A stretch of DNA of 64,000 bases from Phorcus lineatus. Its lineage: Eukaryota > Mollusca > Gastropoda > Trochida > Trochidae. Of the stretch, positions 46,017 through 57,034 are shown piece after piece. Within the stretch, counting starts at the first letter, position 1; every line of letters begins with the position of its first letter. Below the pieces are notes generated by a model. That model was not told the origin of the DNA. It worked only from the letters and a program-made list of their open reading frames with translations, and ran no database searches. Made by a program: the position numbers and the translations under genes. The stretch is taken from positions 32,371,764-32,435,763 of the forward strand of contig OV121092.1 of NCBI GenBank assembly GCA_921293015.1. The letters are read 5' to 3'.

Positions 46017-49000
46017 TCATATGCTTATATCATGAAATACAAGATTTCTTTTATCGCACATAACAATAACTTTGAAATGAAAAATAGCCAATATTTTTAG
46101 TCTAATTTTGCGAAATATCACATACAACGTATCAGACAAAACAGATCTAACACCCAAGATTATCATCAATTTTAAATATCAAAAGTATTGAAATTAAACC
46201 AAAATTAAAATTAACGTCAAAGTCAAAAGTCTGAATGTGATTAGAAGCAAGATCTCAAATGAACAGTTTATTGTGTAGAAAGTATGTATCCACAAGACAC
46301 ATCAAAGATCGATCATCACTCCAATTGAATACCTATGAAAAACGTTTTTTTCAAGTCGTGCAAACCTCAAGGTTGTGGGGAAAATATACACTACATAAAA
46401 CCTAAAGGTATCAAATAAATTTTGACAAGTTATCAATAATAAGAATTATATAAAAATTCTATAATATGATAAGTTTTAAATGACACTCTGTAAATATACC
46501 CTGTTGCGATAGAATTATGTAAGCTGTAAAGGTATACATTTTTTCTTTAATTTGTAACTTCGAAATAACAACTTTTCAAAAACAGTTCAATATCAAGTAA
46601 GTGAGTTGGGGTTTAACGTGTTTTGAACAATAGTTATTAAACACGTGGATGACAAGCATCCAAAAGAGAGTTGACAGATCAGGGAGAAAGGGATCGATAG
46701 GATGAGGGAATCAATTTCAAACCATTTGAATTGACGTATAGGTACGTTAGAAATCAATAACATATTTTGCTTTATTTATATATGCCATATGCATTTCCTT
46801 GATATTGGCTTAACCAGATTCATAACGCATTAAATTTCAAAATATTATTATAGTATAGATATCAATTATATGTAAATACTTGATTCAATAATGATTGAAT
46901 TATAACATACGTTGTTCGAATCCAGGACTGTTGATAAACAATTATCGGATTACACGAAATGCAGAAATTCGCAATAATGTGATACTGAAGGTATGAATCA
47001 AATACCTTCAGGAAAGATAATAAGCAAACCACAAAAATATACAAACAAAATAGGACACATCTTACCATTGATGGCCTATCAGCTCTATAAATCATATAGT
47101 TATTCAGAAGTTTAAGAAAAACGATGACATTTTAATTTAGCTGTTGGTCCTAAACATTACACGCCCACATCTTTCAAGTAAAAGGCGATAAAATGGTGTC
47201 CGAACATAACCGTTAATATCTCTTAAATGACATTCTGAATTGTTCGTCTGCCTCTTTTTCGTGTACAAGTTCAAGGACGTATGTCCATGTAGCTCCGCTC
47301 AGTGACATATAATAATTTATAGAATTCATAACAAATGAACAACAGCATGAAAGAGGCAATTTGTTTAATTGAGAGGATGATGCCATTTTTATCTAAACAT
47401 TTAGAAAATCGATGTTTTGAAATTCAGAAAATTTTAACATCAACCTGTTAGTCAATGATAAGCTCAATGATCCTGTTAAATGTGGACTGTAATTGCAAAT
47501 GAAGTTACGAAATTGATATTTGCACTAAGGTACCAACTTTAGGGATGCAACTGTATGTATTTCTTCGATTCAGCGCTTTAAATTTTGGTCTGTGGTGCAG
47601 AATATTAATTAACATCTCTCTCACGTCTGTTCGAATCTATAGAGTTTTTCTTTATTTTTTAAATCGAAAATCAGACAATTAAACCACGCGGAATATGTTC
47701 AAATCTTTTTCTGAAAACGTAGGGTATTCGGGAAGAAATTGGAGGCGATAGTGATGATACGTTAGTTAAGCAGTAATTGTCTACATGACAAGAGTAACTG
47801 CAAGTATATCAGGCTATTTTTCGATTTCCATTGAACGTTTTATAAATTTTCTGTAAGTTTATGATTAAGCAAGCCGAAGTCCATGTTATTGATTCACACA
47901 AATGGTATTTTAGAACGCATGGAAATCGAAAAATATTTCTGAAAAGGAAATTAGACTAAAATTTATGGAATATTAAAAGATAAAGAAGTTCGTATGTTAA
48001 TTTCAAGAACCTGCAGTTAGATATGGTTAAAACCAGGACTAGATGAATGAGAACTTAAAATGTATCAAAGACTCTCATTTCTAAATGTAGGGTGACAAAA
48101 AACATTGATTATGAAGAAAAATTAAACTAAATTAAAAATTCAATAAAAATAATGATCCAGTGTAAGCAAGGGGTTATACAGGTGTTCGATATATAAGAGC
48201 ACTGTCCCTAGTAGATAATTGAATCGTGTAACGGTGAAAGATTAAAGTAAATATGTCAAACTGACCTAGTCTGGATACGCCATGGCTATAGTTACCTAGG
48301 AAAGCCGCTGACGTCATCATATCCGCCATGGATTGTGCATGATGTTTTCTGACTTTGTAATATACCTGAAACGTCCAACGATGAAATCCACATCATTTCT
48401 ACGTACTACCCTTAGATGCTCCGTTGTCTAATGACATGTCTGAAGCTTAGTGTTAAGCAATCTTGAAGATGCGAGGGGTGTTCAATAAGTAATCTGTCAA
48501 TTATGTTATCTAAACTAAACGAATCACTAGCAAAGTCACAGCCAATTTTTGCATGGTTAATATATCCTTGGATAGAGTTATCACCCTAGCACATAGGGTA
48601 ATAATATCTTATAAATTCACCAAGAACTAATAATTTCTTTCATATGAACCTTACTGATCTCTGGGTTGTTGTTTCACAACAAAACTCAACAGCGGGTAAC
48701 TTTAGCATACAGGTGACATCAACCATATGTCTACGTTTAGAGATGACTGTACACGGGCCAGTCTAAAATCTTGGATTATATCGGACGAAGCTCCCATAGA
48801 ATATATCTACATATTGACATTCGCTCTGTACCATCAATGTCAAATCCGATGTGGCGTTGTTTATGGTCTTCATGCAACGAAGAGATAACTGTCACATATC
48901 CCATCACTTTCCTTTTATTGTCACAATGGGTTACCAATCAATATCGATTCTTCTATTAAAAGTAGCAGTTGATTAGCTTGTAGAGATTATTCATGATATT

Positions 49001-49380
49001 TTTGCTACAATTTTGACGGTTATTAAAGTTGATGATGACGAACATTGGTTATCGACAGTTACAACATTTCACGTGACTTTATGTCTTTTGCAATGTTTAC
49101 AAACATACATGGATATTCCCCTTTTACATGTCATGTACAAAACAACAAGGTTTCAACTATGACGTTTCAAACATTATTTGCAACATATATATTATACAAT
49201 TTTCGATATGTCAATCAATATAAGCAGTTTAAAGGTTCATATGATACATACATGACATATCATGATACAAACCTATTGTCAAGCAAATGGTAACATTTGA
49301 TTTCTTTTTCTGTGATGTCCAATTACTTCCCTTAAAACACGCGCTAAAATGTCTTTAAACAATAGATATAACTGTAACCA
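46017..49380. other. No gene seen
   Basis: AT-rich with only short frames. A short inverted pair 'tttttcgatttccattgaac' / 'catggaaatcgaaaaat' lies at about 47818-47935. A 'ggggtgttcaataagtaat' phrase at 48476 recalls a mariner end, but no partner end was found. Confidence 0.3.
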
Positions 49381-49382
49381 GA

Positions 49383-49523
49383 AGCTGATACTCGGGTTAA
49401 TATACTGAATATATATATATATAATAATTATAAAGATAAATATCCTTAATAACGGGATGCTGCTGTTTTGGATTATTAAGTCTCCAGGAGCTGATACTCT
49501 GGTTAATATACTGAATATATATA
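49383..49523. repeat. 106-bp tandem repeat, left part, interrupted by the PLE
   Basis: 'agctgatactcgggttaata' with 'tactgaatatatata' occurs at 49383 and again 106 bases later at 49489. Between them lies (AT)n plus a 61-bp block (49423-49483). The second unit is cut in its AT tract by the PLE. Its 61-bp block reappears at 53929-53990. Confidence 0.85.
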
Positions 49524-49524
49524 G

Positions 49525-50607
49525 ATGGACAGATTATTTGGATACATCCAAAACACCTATGGACATATTTTCAAAGACAGAGAAGAAAAAGAAGTTACCC
49601 AGGCGGCGTCCCAAAAGAAGCAGTCAATCATAAAGTTATGGAAGAGACAGCTAAACAGCCGAAGGCAAGCTTACAATGAAGCTATTCGGACAAAGGGAAC
49701 GGCAGACATTTTCCAAGCATATTTAGAAAGAGAAACTCCGTTTATTCCAAATAAATTCATGGAACTCTTTGACTGTGAGAAAAGCTTAGATGAAATAACA
49801 AGCTTTGGAATACGCCAAATGGAAAAGGAGTGTGAAAAACTCCTCAAACAACACAAGGTTAGTGTTGAAAAGTACTCAAATATCGACGAGGAAATGACCA
49901 TATTGTTGAGTGAGATATCTTCCGGCCCTATCCAAGAAAAACTACAATCATTCTGGAAATTGGATACGCAACGCACTGACAACAAAATAATGAACCAGTG
50001 GGCCAAAACAGAAACATGGTTGATGGAAGCTCCAACACGAGACATCAACACTGACAGTCGCCCAATGGGGAACCATCAACGTGGACAACGATGGCAACAA
50101 AGGCGTCCACAAAGGCCCCAACAAAACAGCAGACAACAATGGCCTCAACAAAACAGGAGACAACACCGGCACAGAGAACACGGACGACCACAAAGGGACC
50201 AACCTCACCAACAGAGACAAAGACAAAGGGGCCAATCTACTCAACAGTGGCAGGAACAAAGGGACCAAACTACTCAACAGAGGCAGGGACCTGTCCAACA
50301 CCAGAACCCAACAAACCAAAGTCATGCCCCTACCACAAAAAGAAGATGGGAAGCAACCACAGAACAGCCTTTTCAGAACACCAGGTCCCGTCATCCATCT
50401 AATAAGGAAGCAACTGTGACAGTAAACAACACAACTGAACCAAACGTCGAGAAAACACCCGACCGACACGCGTATGACAATGGTACAACATACATTGGCA
50501 AACGGACAAATGGTGGCATTTTTTATAACCTTCCTTTTTTAGGAGGGAAGAAGAAGTCGAAGGACAAACCAGGGGCGACCCCTCGGAATTATGCACACCG
50601 ATCGTAA
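49525..50607 (+). CDS. PLE ORF1: predicted RNA-binding, Gln/Arg-rich protein
   Basis: 360 codons, intact. An in-frame TAG directly precedes the ATG. Residues 1-175 are charged and helical (EEKEVTQAASQKKQSIIKLW..., EKECEKLLKQHKVSVEKY). Residues about 184-253 are almost only Gln, Arg, Pro and His in QQR/PQQ repeats, a likely RNA-binding linker, encoded by caa/agg-rich repetitive DNA. The C-terminus is NLPFLGGKKKSKDKPG..TPRNY. No known domain was recognised. The equivalent position in other retroelements is held by a nucleic-acid chaperone. Codons CCT TTT TTA at 50533-50541 form a slippery heptamer where the RT frame (-1) opens. Antisense frames here are shadows of the skewed composition. Confidence 0.7.
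   Translation: MDRLFGYIQNTYGHIFKDREEKEVTQAASQKKQSIIKLWKRQLNSRRQAYNEAIRTKGTADIFQAYLERETPFIPNKFMELFDCEKSLDEITSFGIRQMEKECEKLLKQHKVSVEKYSNIDEEMTILLSEISSGPIQEKLQSFWKLDTQRTDNKIMNQWAKTETWLMEAPTRDINTDSRPMGNHQRGQRWQQRRPQRPQQNSRQQWPQQNRRQHRHREHGRPQRDQPHQQRQRQRGQSTQQWQEQRDQTTQQRQGPVQHQNPTNQSHAPTTKRRWEATTEQPFQNTRSRHPSNKEATVTVNNTTEPNVEKTPDRHAYDNGTTYIGKRTNGGIFYNLPFLGGKKKSKDKPGATPRNYAHRS
50535..50541 (+). promoter_or_regulatory. Candidate -1 ribosomal frameshift site (TTTTTTA)
   Basis: In the ORF1 frame the bases fall as CC-T TTT TTA, the X XXY YYZ phase needed for -1 slippage. After slippage the next codon is AGG at 50541 and the frame stays open through EEEVEGQ... into the conserved PLE N-terminal block VKVINLSSFDFT. 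A small hairpin AGGGG/CCCCT (50571-50583) lies about 30 bases downstream, farther than usual. An ordinary indel could give the same picture. Confidence 0.4.
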
Positions 50608-52897
50608 AGGTAATCAATCTATCTTCTTTTGATTTTACCCAAGAGCAAATTAATCTTCTAAAATTAGGACTTAAATTCACCCCTACCCCTAAATCAGATC
50701 CTAGAGAACTAAATAGGGACGTAGAAGAATTTGTTCGTAAACTAAGATTTAAAGAATATTTCTCTAAAGAAGATGATGATGATGATGAAAACATACAACT
50801 AGAGGCAACTCGAACCCCAGACCCAAACAAACCCTTAGTTAGAAATAAATCAAACAAACAGCCCCCAAGGAGTAATAATAAAACCCTTGAAACCTTTATT
50901 GATTACTTATAACACCAGCCAACTCATAATAAAGGAAAAAGTAAATCCAACTTACCAAAAGAGAGTCAGACTGCTCTCTCCCAATTAAAGATAATCCTGA
51001 TATAATTATCAAAGAAGCAGACAAAGGAGGGGCTGTTGTCATTATGGATAGGGATTACTATGAAAACAAAATTAATGACATGCTTAACGATAAGCAAATA
51101 TACAAATCTTTACCTAAAAACTCTGACTCAAAAATAATGTCCCAACTAAACAAACTTCTCAACAAATACGAGTGTGAACTCACAGATGAGGAACGCAAAT
51201 ATATAACAAATTTTGAATTTAACTCTAGTAACTTCTATGGTCTCCCAAAAGTACACAAATCTGAATTGATTAAGTCAGCTGTAAAAGAACAAAATTCGGA
51301 ATAAGTTTGGTTAAAGACACCAGAGGACTTAAAATTTCGCCCAATAATTGCAGGCCCACAATGCCCTACACACCGCCTAAGCAATTTGGTAGATATCCTT
51401 CTTCACCCACTCCTTGAACATGTAAATAGTTATGTTAGGGACGATCTAGATTTTCTAAAGCATATTCCAGATAGAGTCGCAAGTGATACAATCCTAGTTA
51501 GCTTTGATGTGACTTCCCTATACAGTAATATCCCACATGAGCTAGGCAAAACTGCACTAGAATTCTGGATTGACAAACATCCTGAGTCAATCCATCCACG
51601 TTTTAGCAAAGATTTCACCCTTACATCAGCTGAATTTATTCTAGAAAACAACACATTTCAATTCAATCAAAATTCATATCTTCAAATTCTAGGTACGGCA
51701 ATGGGGACAAAATTTGCGCCAGTCTATGCCAATTTAGTACTAGCGTACCTAGAAGAAAATCTCTATACTACCATAGAGGAAAAATTCGACAAGAATTTTG
51801 CAAATGAATTCATCTTAAAATGGAAAAGATACCTTGATGATTGTTTCACATTTTGGGAAAAATCTAAAGGGGACATATACCAAATATATGACATTCTACA
51901 AAACATGCATCCCAACATCAAATTCACAATGGAAACAAGTGAGACAGAATTACCTTTCTTAGACATACTTATCAAGAAGGATAATACTCACATCTTAACT
52001 GATATTTTCCATAAGACAACAGACACAAAACAATATCTCCATTTCAAAAGCGCACATGAACGACATGTCAAAACAAACTTGCCCTATTGTCTAGCTAGAC
52101 GTGTCTGTGCCATAATTAGCAATGAAAACCTCAGGTCTCTAAGATTAGAGGAACTAAAATCTTCACTATTGCAGCTAGGCTATCCAGAACCTCTTATCAA
52201 AGATGGAATAAATAAAGCACAGGCACTCACTCTTGAAGAGTTACGTACTCCTAAAGATAAAATAAATGAGGACCAAAACACAATCGCTTTTGTGACAACA
52301 CATAATAAAAACAATGCGGAATTATTCCCTGTTATACATCGGAACTTACCTATGCTTAGTCAAGACAAGAGGTTAGGCCAAATGTTGAAAAGAAATAAAA
52401 TCATTAAAAGCAAAAGACAGCCCAAAAATCTTAAACATATCTTAACAAGGGCTAAATATGATGGTATTCAAAACCCAACAGAAAGACCTTCAGTTTCCAA
52501 ATGTTCAAATAAAAGATGTGGCACATGTCCCCATTTATTAGAAGGCTCGTCTTTCACATTTGACAATGGCAAAACATTTGAAATAAAATCTAACTTTGAT
52601 TGCAATTCAAAAAATGTCATTTATGCAATAATGTGCCCTAAGTGTAAAAAATCCTATATTGGTAAAACTGAATGCCTAAGAAATAGGGTAACCTTACACA
52701 GACAACACAATAACGATAGCAGATACCGCTGTTTATTTGTAAATAAACATCTTTCTACTTGTGCAAACGGTGATTTCAAAATATTTCCTTTCTATAAATT
52801 ATTTCATAAATCTAACATGGGCAGTGTCTCAAATGCACTTTTACGACTTGAAGAGTCCTTCATTGACACCTATAGACCCTCACTAAATAAACAATGA
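50541..52897 (+). pseudogene. PLE reverse transcriptase with GIY-YIG endonuclease, disrupted
   Basis: The frame opens at the slippery site and runs to TAA at 50910-50912. Homology continues past it in the same frame, shifts by one base near 50993, then runs ADKGGAVVIMDRDYY, FYGLPKVHK, an in-frame TAA at 51302-51304, RPIIAGPQCPT, LVSFDVTSLYSNIP (motif A), GTAMGTKFAPVYANL (motif B), YLDD (51830-51841, motif C), LPFLDI, H..RRVCAI. It then carries a Cys-rich linker (CSNKRCGTCPHL) and GIY-YIG (VIYAIMC at 52616, YIGKT at 52655). It ends SLNKQ-stop. Catalytic aspartates and the GIY-YIG core are present. This architecture is that of endonuclease-bearing PLEs (Poseidon/Neptune/Penelope type). Confidence 0.92.
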
Positions 52898-53144
52898 GAT
52901 GATTACCCTTAAATCACTGACATATATATCTCTAACTACAATTGAGCTATTTAAAAACAAAAGGGATTATGTCACATTAACATATTGCTCATGGGGTAAA
53001 CTCATAAGAGAGTGATTGTGTCAATCAGAAGACCAACAAGGAAGAACCATGATGTCACCTGATTAGCATAATTTACAATATATCCTTGTACATTGTACGT
53101 ATATTTTGTTATAAAAACGCTTGTAATGCGATGTTAACGATCAT

Positions 53145-53205
53145 ATCGTTTCATCCCTGATGATGCAATACTATTGACGAAATACTAGTATCGGATTAAA
53201 ATGAT
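53145..53205 (+). ncRNA. Hammerhead-type self-cleaving ribozyme motif of the PLE
   Basis: Core CTGATGA (53157-53163) and GAAA (53179-53182). Helix III is TAC/GTA with a 2-base loop, followed by TC (53191-53192), the expected cleavage site. Helix I is ATCC (53153-53156) with GGAT (53193-53196), extended by ATCGTTT (53145-53151) with AAATGAT (53199-53205). Helix II is CAAT/ATTG, but the two core-proximal pairs (T-C, G-A) are mismatched, so this copy may be slow or dead. Hammerheads with very short helix III are known in PLEs. No experiment backs activity here. Confidence 0.6.
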
Positions 53206-53240
53206 TCTTCAAACGACTATGTGAAATATGTTATATTTAA

Positions 53241-53266
53241 TCTATATATATATATATATATACAGT
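53241..53266. repeat. (TA)n tract between two PLE segments
   Basis: About 24 bases of pure TA separate the PLE 3' end from the next fragment. Confidence 0.9.
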
Positions 53267-53634
53267 CGGAGGGGTCCCTAACTGTAGAGGACTTGAGTCA
53301 ATCTGAGGACTTATTATTATCATCATCCGAGGTCTTTCACCAATCCAACACAACTTTATCAAGTGCGGGGGAGGACTCAACTGTATCACAATCGGGAGGG
53401 AGAAGTAATGACAATTTATCAACACCATCCCAGAACACCCTCTCAAAAAGCTTCTGGAGTAAATTCAATTTTATCAAAAGAATTTCTTCAAAAGACGCTA
53501 AAACATATACTCCTAGAAATTACATGTATACAGGTCATGTCACCGGTGCGATTGAAACAAAAGATCAATTGATGGACTGGGACAGACCGGGAAGAAGCTA
53601 CCATAATGACTCAATTCTTAATCCCTCGTAAATA
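53267..53634 (+). pseudogene. Unrecognised Ser-rich open frame, possible fragment of another PLE ORF1
   Basis: An open frame starts right after (TA)n ACAG and ends at TAA 53629-53631. It is Ser/Glu/Asp-rich (SEDLLLSSSEV), then ends with a basic segment FIKRISSKDAKTYTPRNYMY. The KD....TPRNY stretch resembles the C-terminus of the PLE ORF1 (SKDKPGATPRNY). It is followed by a 3' UTR and a hammerhead-like hairpin. It could instead be a host exon (AG acceptor at the AT tract). No domain was recognised. Confidence 0.4.
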
Positions 53635-53755
53635 GCGCATTGTAAGCTAATCAAGCTAACCACTTGTCACTTGCTAATCAATCAAAGTCTATTGTACATT
53701 GTTACATAGTTAAGCATGTGTACCTATATATTTGCCATGTTGTGAAAACTCCACA

Positions 53756-53810
53756 CTGTTGAAAAGACTTGTCATCAAGTCGAAATGCGACGCATCCAGT
53801 CATCATTAAA
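53756..53810 (+). ncRNA. Degenerate hammerhead-like 3' end of a second PLE fragment
   Basis: Stem GACTTG/CAAGTC with loop TCAT, then GAAA (53782-53785), TGC/GCA stem and TC. It is followed by 'cattaaaatgat', the same phrase that follows the first ribozyme. The CTGATGA core is replaced by CTGTTGA plus extra A residues, and helix I does not form well, so activity is unlikely. Confidence 0.4.
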
Positions 53811-53850
53811 ATGATATCTACAGCAAGTGTCGTCTGAAGTATTTTATTTT

Positions 53851-53853
<3 letters not shown>

Positions 53854-53920
<67 letters not shown>
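53854..53920. repeat. (AT)n microsatellite
   Basis: About 65 bases of AT dinucleotide form the right border of the PLE cluster. Confidence 0.95.
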
Positions 53921-53924
<4 letters not shown>

Positions 53925-53928
53925 TATA

Positions 53929-53990
53929 AAATAATTATAAAGATAAATATCCTTAATAACCGGATGCTGCTGTTTTGGATTATTAAGTCT
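53929..53990. repeat. Right copy of the 61-bp block of the interrupted tandem repeat
   Basis: 'ataattataaagataaatat', 'ccttaataac.ggatgctgct' and 'gttttggattattaagtct' match 49423-49483 with one or two differences. The PLE cluster therefore sits inside the second unit of a 106-bp tandem repeat. Confidence 0.85.
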
Positions 53991-54235
53991 TTATATTCCT
54001 TTATTATATCTTTGACTATTACTGTACTTAAACTGAGCAGATGATGAACTGTTCATTACTAAATGTAAGTTAATTGATGAAGTTTATCTAAATGACTGTT
54101 CAAGACGTGCTCCAAGACATAGGAATTATCTAATGATTAATGAATGTACAAAGGAACAAACCCCGTACTAAGCGATCTGCTTAGTTAGTATACCCCCTTA
54201 AGGTATATTTACTTGGATATCTACTTGTAGGGAGA

Positions 54236-54750
54236 TGTAGTAGGATTTGTAACTTGGCCAATGAAAAGCAAGAAGGATTAAGGCCTGTCCACTAAATGGT
54301 CAAGGGGACAGTCAAATAAATGAGGCCCCCTGAAGTTACAAGACCAACCCTTGACTAGATCATCATGATGAATTAGTGGCTTTAAGTGGACATTCGAAAA
54401 CAAGGATGATTCTGTACAATATGTCAGAACACTCAGAAAACAAGTGATTCATCTAATTTGATAGATTAATTTACTTTCTATAAAACATGGGGGATAGGAT
54501 TTGTTCGAGAGTTAGTTAGTTGGTCTTGACTTGTCTTGTCTTTGGAAAATCTTGGGAGTCAAACCCGAGACGACAGGATTGAAGAACCGGGAAATTACCT
54601 TGTGAACGAAATAAGGGAGTTGCTGTGTTCACTGTGTTGCTGTATTTGCTGTGTTGATGTACCCACCGATTAATAAATACCACTAGACGATCACATCATT
54701 TTGGACTCTTTATTTGGACTCTCCAATCACATTGACCTGGTTACATTACA
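54236..54750. mobile_element. Candidate solo LTR
   Basis: It begins TGTAGTAGG and ends TTACATTACA (TGTA...TACA ends). About 515 bp, no ORF, with 'ttaataaatacc' as a possible poly(A) signal 70 bases before the end. No clear target-site duplication. Tentative. Confidence 0.35.
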
Positions 54751-57034
54751 TCCCAAGGGAGGTAAGCTTAGAGCTTAGATTAGGTACCATTGGAGTCCTT
54801 AACAGGTATTGTACAAACAATATAACAAACGTTTAGTGACTTTCGCTCCTTAATATTTTTTTTCGTTACGTTCATAGAGCTAGCATCATGTAAAAAGTTT
54901 TAGTTTGCTTTCGATTTATTAAAAGTTTTGGGGTTTTTTGTAGATGAAGAAAAGACATATTCCTATAAGATATTTACCTACTTAGCATTAATACACATCA
55001 CATCTGACAGTTATTCATTCAACATTGTGGTAAACAATATAAATATCAAACTTCTCGATCATCTTCTAACATTTTCTTTTATAAATATATATGAATATGA
55101 TTTTAAAAATCATCACAACGGTAGTAAATATCTACTAAATTTATTTGTGTTGAATTATTATCCAATTGCAGTAATTAGAAATTTCGAATTTTCTAATAGA
55201 CCCCTTTCCTCTAAGAGGTAAAGTCCTGAATTTACCACATATCTAACCCTTATGTATAAGTGTAAATATGATTATTATTGATCTTAAATTCTTTGAAATA
55301 TTTTCTGAGGAAGTGAAAACAAATTCAAACCTTATGAAAATGATAACTTTAAATAGCAACTCTAACACAGTTGTTGTGTCGTTATTAGCAGTGTAGCTCT
55401 CAAACCACAAAGATAATCTGTTTACTGAATTGTGCCATTTCCAAGGCCTGCGGTGTATTAAAGGGGCATTAGTACGTATTAGTATTACTTTGTACCAAAT
55501 ATAACACCTTCAGATGGTCAAAATATCTAATCATTCAATTAGAGGGGTAATCAAATATCAAGCAAAAACCTCTGGCGGCAATTTTTATGTGAATACTTAT
55601 TCATTTGAGGTATGGAAATGGATTCGCTTAGCCGATTATGGTACGTTCGTTTAAACACTTTTACATTCGATGAAACATTACGTGCAATTTGTAATATTTA
55701 TTTTCATTTTCATGAGATCAATAGTTTTATCTAAAAATATTTTACAGTCCCTTTAAATGGTTCGATATTGATATCGAAAGTAGTTTCGAAGTACTTTCGT
55801 TTTGTTTTATCAAACAGAGGAGTGTATTGTTGATGCTTACATCAACCACTGAGGTTGAAACAGGTAATCATTGCTTTTCTTCTGTCATTTAAAAAATTTA
55901 GATAGATTTAGATATACATAATTAGAATAAATATATTTTACATATAATTTTATTATAGGTGAGGTTCTGTTTAATAACCGAAACCAATAACACCCATTTC
56001 GACTATGACGTCACAGTCCTTTATCTGTAGTGGACAGGAGGGTTTAATTTTCATCTCGTTTTACCACAAAGTACTTTTTACTCACTTTATACTCTCTATA
56101 TCTTGTTAATCGTATTCTATTTCTATAACAAATAAGTCATATTTGTATAAATACAATATCTATATCATATATTGTTCACAGGCTATCACATGAACGATAA
56201 GCGACGTTATCAAACATTATCAGTCAACATATACATACATAGGTATGAGTGGGGACTTCGATAAACAATTCTCTTACTGCATTTATTGGTCATGGGGTCA
56301 AGGATGCAGTTGAAGGCACAACATATGTACATAAATTTGCATTAAAGGGGGTTAATTCATTTTCAAGTTAAACAGACATTTGTCTCTGTGGAACAATGAA
56401 CTATTAGTGTTTATTTTTTAATATTCAATATTTTTTATATATAATAATTTTTGCAGTGTTAAGTACTCAGATACTCATGCTGATAGATAAAGATGGATTT
56501 ACATATATATAATGTACCGCACAATAAATTCATCCTCATTATTTCTCATATTTATTTTTTTACATAAGATGTAGTTTTTGTCACATTGAAATTAATGTCT
56601 AGTTTGTACTTTACAAAGAGTATTAAATAAAGCTTATTTTTATTTGCAATACCTCTTAATTGTTTTTTTTACATGATAGACATATTTCAGTATGATCCTG
56701 AGATGACAAAGCAGAGTATATAAATAAAAACGAAAAACTTCGATTAAGAGTAAGACAATCTAAAAAATCCAATAACGATGTCTTTAATATGACTAGAGAA
56801 CTTTGAAATCAGGAGAAAGCATTAGTTCTTACTGAACTATGATTTTTTTTATATCCTTGAAATAGGTTGTAAATCTTTTTCCCCCCTTTATCAAAGTGCT
56901 CTGTTTAAAATCAGTTTTTGTTTTGTTTTTGTTCCCCCCTCCCCAACCTCTTTCATTCCTTTTTAAACATCATGTATATAATAAATTTGTTATTATTTAG
57001 TATCCTATGAATGCTTCATTTGAATATCAGAGTG
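54751..57034. other. No gene seen; one weak TTAA-bounded element
   Basis: A 97-codon frame at 54928-55221 is AT-driven and unconvincing. 55458-55756 starts TTAAAGGGGCATTAG and ends ACAGTCCCTTTAA, possibly a TTAA-type MITE with only ~9-bp inverted ends. Confidence 0.3.

Follow-up and report, generated by a model that had tools for sequence, protein, structure and literature searches.

We find that a Penelope-like retroelement of Phorcus lineatus carries a conserved slippery heptamer where its first open reading frame (ORF1) overlaps its reverse transcriptase (RT) frame. This heptamer very probably directs a programmed −1 ribosomal frameshift, which would yield ORF1 together with a minor ORF1–RT–endonuclease fusion. 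The copy described lies in a stretch of 64,000 nucleotides (the window). The genome searched was that of the host itself (958 Mb, 74 contigs) and every copy comes from this one genome; individual places are referred to by L numbers. The features of the window copy are listed below.

49527..50607, + strand: ORF1, 5′-truncated here (open frame 49525–50607), with an N-terminal region common to other families followed by a Q/R-rich basic tail
50529..50607, + strand: 79-nt overlap between ORF1 and the −1 RT frame, from the open reading frames
50529..50912, + strand: N-terminal part of the RT frame, without a start codon and terminated by a stop lesion
50535..50541, + strand: slippery heptamer T TTT TTA, from the letters read and in-phase conservation across copies
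50569..50586, + strand: weak hairpin 27 nt past the heptamer (z 0.13 for 50535–50600), too distant and not significant as a stimulator
starting at 50610, + strand: conserved RT block VINLSSFDFT...GLKFTPTP
50945..51304, + strand: second open piece of the RT with a stop lesion at its end, uninterrupted in L010 over the same stretch
51305..52897, + strand: third open piece, with an RVT_1-like RT core (about 51446–51931) and a C-terminal GIY-YIG endonuclease (about 52613–52879)

The ORF1 frame of the window copy (49525–50607, 360 codons) contains TTTTTTA at 50535–50541, and the surrounding codons (..CCT TTT TTA GGA..) place it in exactly the X XXY YYZ phase, as an earlier note on this DNA had claimed. 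The RT frame lies at −1 to ORF1. It is preceded directly by a stop at 50526–50528 and stays open over 50529–50912, encoding PSFFRREEEVEG...VKVINLSSFDFTQEQINLLKLGLKFTPTP. The conserved N-terminal RT block VINLSSFDFTQEQINLLKLGLKFTPTP is carried in this frame, which bears out the further claim that a −1 slip enters an open frame leading to the RT block of Penelope-like elements without a start codon. The overlap had been put at about 70 bases, close to the 73 nt made up by the heptamer and the rest of ORF1, stop included; by the frames themselves it is 79 nt. A second TTTTTTA at 50519–50525 is out of phase, and one substitution removes it in most other copies.

The window copy is dead, its ORF1 being 5′-truncated and its RT interrupted by a frame change as well as by two stops. 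ORF1 does not natively start at the ATG at 49525: other copies are homologous from about 49527 onwards, and the ORF1 of L010 is longer, hence the assignment of a 5′ truncation. The RT lesions are a stop at 50910–50912, a frame change before the piece that starts at 50945 and a stop at 51302–51304. The 530 codons after the last lesion carry RVT_1 and GIY-YIG matches in Pfam; the GIY-YIG match, C-terminal in the RT protein, scores 30.7 bits, over the cut-off of 22.6, and the RVT_1 match scores 27.1 bits, under the cut-off of 29.6 (E 4.1e-06). Comparison of the RT–endonuclease with the PDB gave one weak nuclease match (E 0.034). Judging by its domain order and its N-terminal RT motifs, which we take to be Penelope-like, the element is classed as an endonuclease-bearing Penelope-like retroelement. 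ORF1 matched no Pfam family above the cut-off and no PDB relative. Its N-terminal region recurs in other families at 12–27% identity to the first alignment row, and a single-sequence AlphaFold2 model of window positions 49525–50085 had a mean pLDDT of 39.7. No relatives were found in viral contigs, GTDB contigs, plasmids or phages.

The surroundings of the element were also inspected. Rfam lent no support to a hammerhead ribozyme, with no match in 47500–56000 (E ≤ 1) or in 52850–53850 (E ≤ 10). By eye, two hammerhead-like cores with unremarkable folds are seen, one (53157–53182) close to the 3′ terminus of the element and one (53755–53790) close to that of the next fragment; the former also matches a core-like hammerhead pattern, and its fold is not significant. 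A direct repeat of 75 nt (95% identical, 49409–49483 and 53916–53990) lies around the entire insert; it may be a long duplication of the target site, or the insertion may have struck a repeat. Downstream of the element, a serine-rich open frame of 143 codons (53200–53631) without a Pfam match possibly belongs to another element nested in the same insert. Elsewhere in the genome, head-to-head copies are found (C9:57206607− with 57207560+; C2:45859621− with 45860970+), and truncated copies are also present.

To follow the junction in the family of the window copy, positions 49525–51300 were used as a query, for which 47 matching pieces were listed. None of the 45 alignment rows that span the site differs in the heptamer, some places being counted more than once. 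Intact relatives are present in the host genome, with reading frames taken as found and without repair. In L010, ORF1 comprises 437 codons from stop to stop (414 from the first ATG) and the RT frame, stop-free to the end of the retrieved stretch, comprises 789 aa in the same −1 relation to ORF1. The heptamer, its phase and the overlap are thus conserved within this genome in copies with an open ORF1 and an open RT.

We then surveyed RT starts across the genome. The RT N-terminus used as a query matched at least 152 places, many with open frames of 750–845 aa. Junctions were taken from 14 places and then from 20 more picked for diversity, and 65 distinct RT starts, matched by N-terminal queries starting at residue one, were classified; selection by search rank and diversity makes this a non-random sample. 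Five belong to a divergent clade without the heptamer (L101–L105), and among the 60 others, 13 show no homology that could be recognised by eye ahead of the RT block. TTTTTT(A/G) is retained in 46 of the 47 non-divergent places that bear a junction and is mutated in one (L090). It is in phase with the RT block in 41 of the 47, as TTTTTTA in 40 and in L089 as TTTTTTG, a poorer slip site than TTTTTTA; in five places (L017, L030, L091, L092 and L106) the letters are kept and the RT phase is broken by an indel. The ORF1 tail reaches the heptamer and reads it as X XXY YYZ in 38 of the 41 RT-phased places. Ten of these 38 are the copies from which the ORF1 tails used as queries were taken, and for query copies without a second copy the identity of ORF1 comes from its long open frame (266 codons in L069, 351 in L080 and 278 in L081). 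The T run is six long in 38 of the 41 places, seven in L066 and L069 and eight in L107. In 19 places an RT-phased heptamer goes together with an RT frame of 740 aa or more; the ORF1 phase was verified in 16 of them, the rest being L073, L107 and L108. L073 and L108 keep the heptamer and show no ORF1 match beside it.

Intact copies encoding both proteins in one frame, a possibility raised by the earlier note, were looked for in the same material. Among the matches listed, none had a complete ORF1 in frame with the RT, the longest open frame being 845 aa (open-frame lists of at least 152, at least 152, at least 121 and at least 93 places). Since a fusion needs about 1,100 aa or more, a full ORF1–RT fusion in the heptamer clade was rejected for the matches listed. 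ORF1 tails do lie in the RT frame through indels in two places, neither of which has a full ORF1. In L107 (one of the 41) about 53 residues are matched upstream of an RT frame of 836 aa, because its T run is eight long, and in the decayed L091 indels bring an ORF1 stretch into the RT frame. L107 (C19:41770695–41771125) is a natural in-frame variant.

Eight places with RT frames of 750–791 aa (L031, L071, L075, L076, L078, L095, L099 and C9:2944952) have no ORF1 junction upstream and are read as 5′-truncated copies. The break in upstream homology was traced for eight of the nine junction-less places tried. In L071, L095, L075, L076, L078, L099 and L031, all with an intact RT, homology to full copies ends 3–43 nt before the RT block. 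In L075 the homology breaks off where the hairpin found in its family has its 3′ base, as if reverse transcription had halted there.

By our own grouping of N-terminal translations, the heptamer is borne by 11 families, with the ORF1 frame verified in 10 (L073 being the exception). The RT cores of seven families are 43–61% identical to that of the window's family. In a tree of RT cores with ten rows (eight of the 11 families and two divergent relatives, midpoint rooting only), the five nearest rows lie 0.76–1.76 changes per site from the window's family. Given these identities and distances, synonymous sites should be saturated, and codons of the NLS block do differ between families. Although the amino acid encoded just before the heptamer varies (P, G, V, Y, D, S or C), this preceding codon ends in T in all 11 families; the Phe codon of the heptamer is TTT in 11 of 11 and the Leu codon is TTA in 10 of 11. 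If families are treated as independent, the joint synonymous probability, using the codon usage of seven ORF1 frames, is about 10^−14 (about 10^−13 without L073), and the true figure is weaker because the families are related. Under the assumption of independence at synonymous sites, the heptamer is conserved beyond coding need. Strict constraint on both overlapping peptides would keep the heptamer without a slip, and against this, free variation is seen both in the tail of ORF1 and in the spacer (54–84 nt) that leads to the RT block. Across representatives the ORF1/RT overlap ranges from 46 to 190 nt. The last stop in the RT frame begins 3 nt (L074), 9 nt (window), 9 nt (L082) or 15 nt (L080) before the heptamer, so that in these four families a −1 switch is only possible between that point and the ORF1 stop. 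We also observed a motif, TTYIG(K/R), at the ORF1 C-terminus just before the heptamer in the window copy (about 50480–50541), L066–L068, L072/L079 and L096; in L082 it takes the form TYVGRA, and in L081 it lies farther upstream. This motif may be a functional tail or a nascent-peptide element.

The divergent relatives show other junctions. In L101–L103 (C41:1448312, C39:4608385 and C9:2036292), an RS-rich or basic upstream frame meets the RT at TAAAATG, a junction of the stop-restart type, in all three, and a pattern search of the genome allowing up to three mismatches found six places, four of which read TAAAATG. In L104 (C37:14462465–14462895), whose RT is 71–74% identical to that of L102, an upstream basic stretch and the RT block share one open frame with neither the heptamer nor a junction ATG, an apparent in-frame fusion. 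In L105 (C5:11338375–11338805), the RT is in the +1 frame relative to another upstream open frame, with an ATG inside the overlap. A 100/100 branch of the ten-row tree splits the eight heptamer-bearing RTs from the two relatives, whose own long branches measure 1.65 and 1.57; beyond it there is no heptamer, and an ATG lies near the RT start. Since the divergent clade has none, the heptamer is a trait of one clade and not a universal one in such elements.

Start codons bear on whether the RT might instead be initiated on its own, through leaky scanning, by reinitiation downstream of the ORF1 stop, or from an internal entry site or near-cognate codon. In the window's family, the RT frame contains no ATG from the upstream stop onwards and no CTG, GTG, TTG or ACG up to +150; the first ATG is at +525 in the window copy and +510 in L039, inside conserved RT. 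Ten of 12 representatives (10 families) have no RT-frame ATG ahead of the RT block. Independent initiation draws some encouragement from the ATGs that do occur in L073 (−102 and +36) and L081 (−51), from near-cognate codons in several families, and from the TAAAATG junctions of L101–L103 and the internal ATG of L105. Nevertheless, it does not fit the window's family, which is without even a near-cognate codon, and it leaves the exact slippery heptamer in ORF1 phase unexplained. We therefore regard independent initiation of the RT as improbable.

The frame might also be changed at the RNA level, either by polymerase slippage on the T run or by splicing across the overlap. The varying length of the run (seven in L066 and L069, eight in L107) would accord with slippage by the polymerase. 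Against this, the run of six found in 38 of the 41 places is short for transcriptional slippage, and the base after it is A in 10 of 11 families, a constancy that is needless for slippage on T. As for splicing, PMC3846280 reports that one Penelope copy contains a spliceosomal intron. Overall, a change of frame in the RNA appears very improbable.

That the frame break is merely a mutation of a dead window copy or of one master copy, with the heptamer incidental, is scarcely credible: the window RT does have other lesions, indels break the RT phase in the five places given above and the T run is longer in L107, but the same −1 arrangement is present in copies with an open ORF1 and an open RT and recurs in diverged families, so that a mutation-made frameshift, which the earlier note had left standing, is refuted by conservation within this genome.

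Programmed frameshift sites may be accompanied by a stimulatory hairpin or pseudoknot, expected 5–9 nt downstream, and we looked for these in the heptamer-bearing families. A perfect 9-bp hairpin lies 7 nt (L074) or 10 nt (L080) past the heptamer, its stems being unrelated in sequence between the two, and the two families are paired in the tree at 80/95. Each hairpin was matched by 0 of 200 shuffles, and the 50-nt folds have z values of −3.3 and −4.4, respectively. Folds of 80 nt are weaker (z −0.9 for L074 and −1.6 for L080), and with the heptamer included z is −1.84 for L074 and −4.31 for L080. L073 has a 50-nt fold with z −2.4, but no stem at the right distance. In nine of the 11 families, including that of the window, no simple hairpin or H-type pseudoknot 3–11 nt downstream was better than shuffles. 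A stimulator of these kinds in the window's family was rejected, neither the folds nor the scan for hairpins and pseudoknots being significant. Slippage would then depend largely on the heptamer by itself, or else on a stimulator of a type outside the scan.

Taken together, the 11 families support the programmed −1 frameshift between ORF1 and RT proposed in the earlier note, as predicted from sequence. In the mechanism that we propose, ribosomes would translate ORF1, with its conserved N-terminal region and basic tail, by standard translation, and most would end at the ORF1 stop codon, 31–70 nt past the start of the heptamer. A minority would slip back by one base on U UUU UUA, the Phe tRNA in the P site and the Leu tRNA in the A site re-pairing, and would go on in the RT frame to produce the predicted ORF1–RT–GIY-YIG fusion. 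ORF1 may then have a stoichiometric or packaging-like role.

It seems reasonably probable, if far from certain, that these families represent a Penelope-like clade organized on a Gag/Gag-Pol plan, in which an abundant basic-tailed ORF1 is accompanied by a rare fusion made through the conserved U UUU UUA, while relatives in this genome rely on stop-restart at TAAAATG, on in-frame fusion or on an internal ATG. If so, what is conserved would be the need to link ORF1 with the RT, and what evolution alters would be the mechanism at the junction. The term Gag is used for ORF1 by analogy only, since there is no Pfam or PDB match.

Penelope-like elements are regarded as a third class of eukaryotic retroelements and as kin of telomerase. 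With a conserved frameshift signal, a sizeable clade of them would possess a defined ORF1, made in a defined proportion to the enzyme, unlike the single-ORF polyprotein form that has been described, and RT frames found without start codons would be accounted for. Annotation of such elements that requires an ATG would miss the RT N-terminus. The families also add an independent set of natural candidate −1 shift sites, most of them without obvious downstream structure. No recognisable report of frameshifting in Penelope-like elements was found in the literature searched, as far as its sources were covered, and an earlier mention may lie beyond its reach; the word Penelope is absent from the covered part of a review of frameshifting (PMC5009743). 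We consider a frameshift-linked RT in Penelope-like elements to be provisionally new, because several central Penelope papers fell outside the search.

The closest parallel is with gag-pol of retroviruses and LTR elements, which share with the present element a U UUU UUA read in the zero-frame phase towards the end of the first ORF, a basic-tailed first ORF, an RT in the −1 frame and a presumed minor fusion. Among animal LTR elements, pol is in the −1 frame in 28 of 51 surveyed, many with classical heptamers, according to PMC5009743. Unlike gag-pol, the element described here combines a Penelope-type RT with a GIY-YIG nuclease instead of protease–RT–RNaseH–integrase; its ORF1 has no recognised Gag match, and a downstream stimulator is evident in only two of the 11 families. 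The order of RT followed by a C-terminal GIY-YIG endonuclease is that of canonical Penelope/Poseidon elements. These are described as a single ORF (PMC11167929), those of Adineta vaga Penelope being 838–842 aa (PMC3846280), whereas the element described here has a separate ORF1 upstream of the RT and in a different frame. The presence of a further ORF beside a Penelope-type RT recalls Athena/Terminon elements, in which additional ORFs accompany the RT (PMC5408684); those elements are endonuclease-deficient and have other ORF types, and the present one bears an endonuclease. Finally, the element resembles HeT-A and other non-LTR elements in which frameshifting is invoked, as it is for HeT-A gag in PMC5009743. 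HeT-A has no RT of its own and is not a Penelope element, whereas the element described here encodes a Penelope-type RT.
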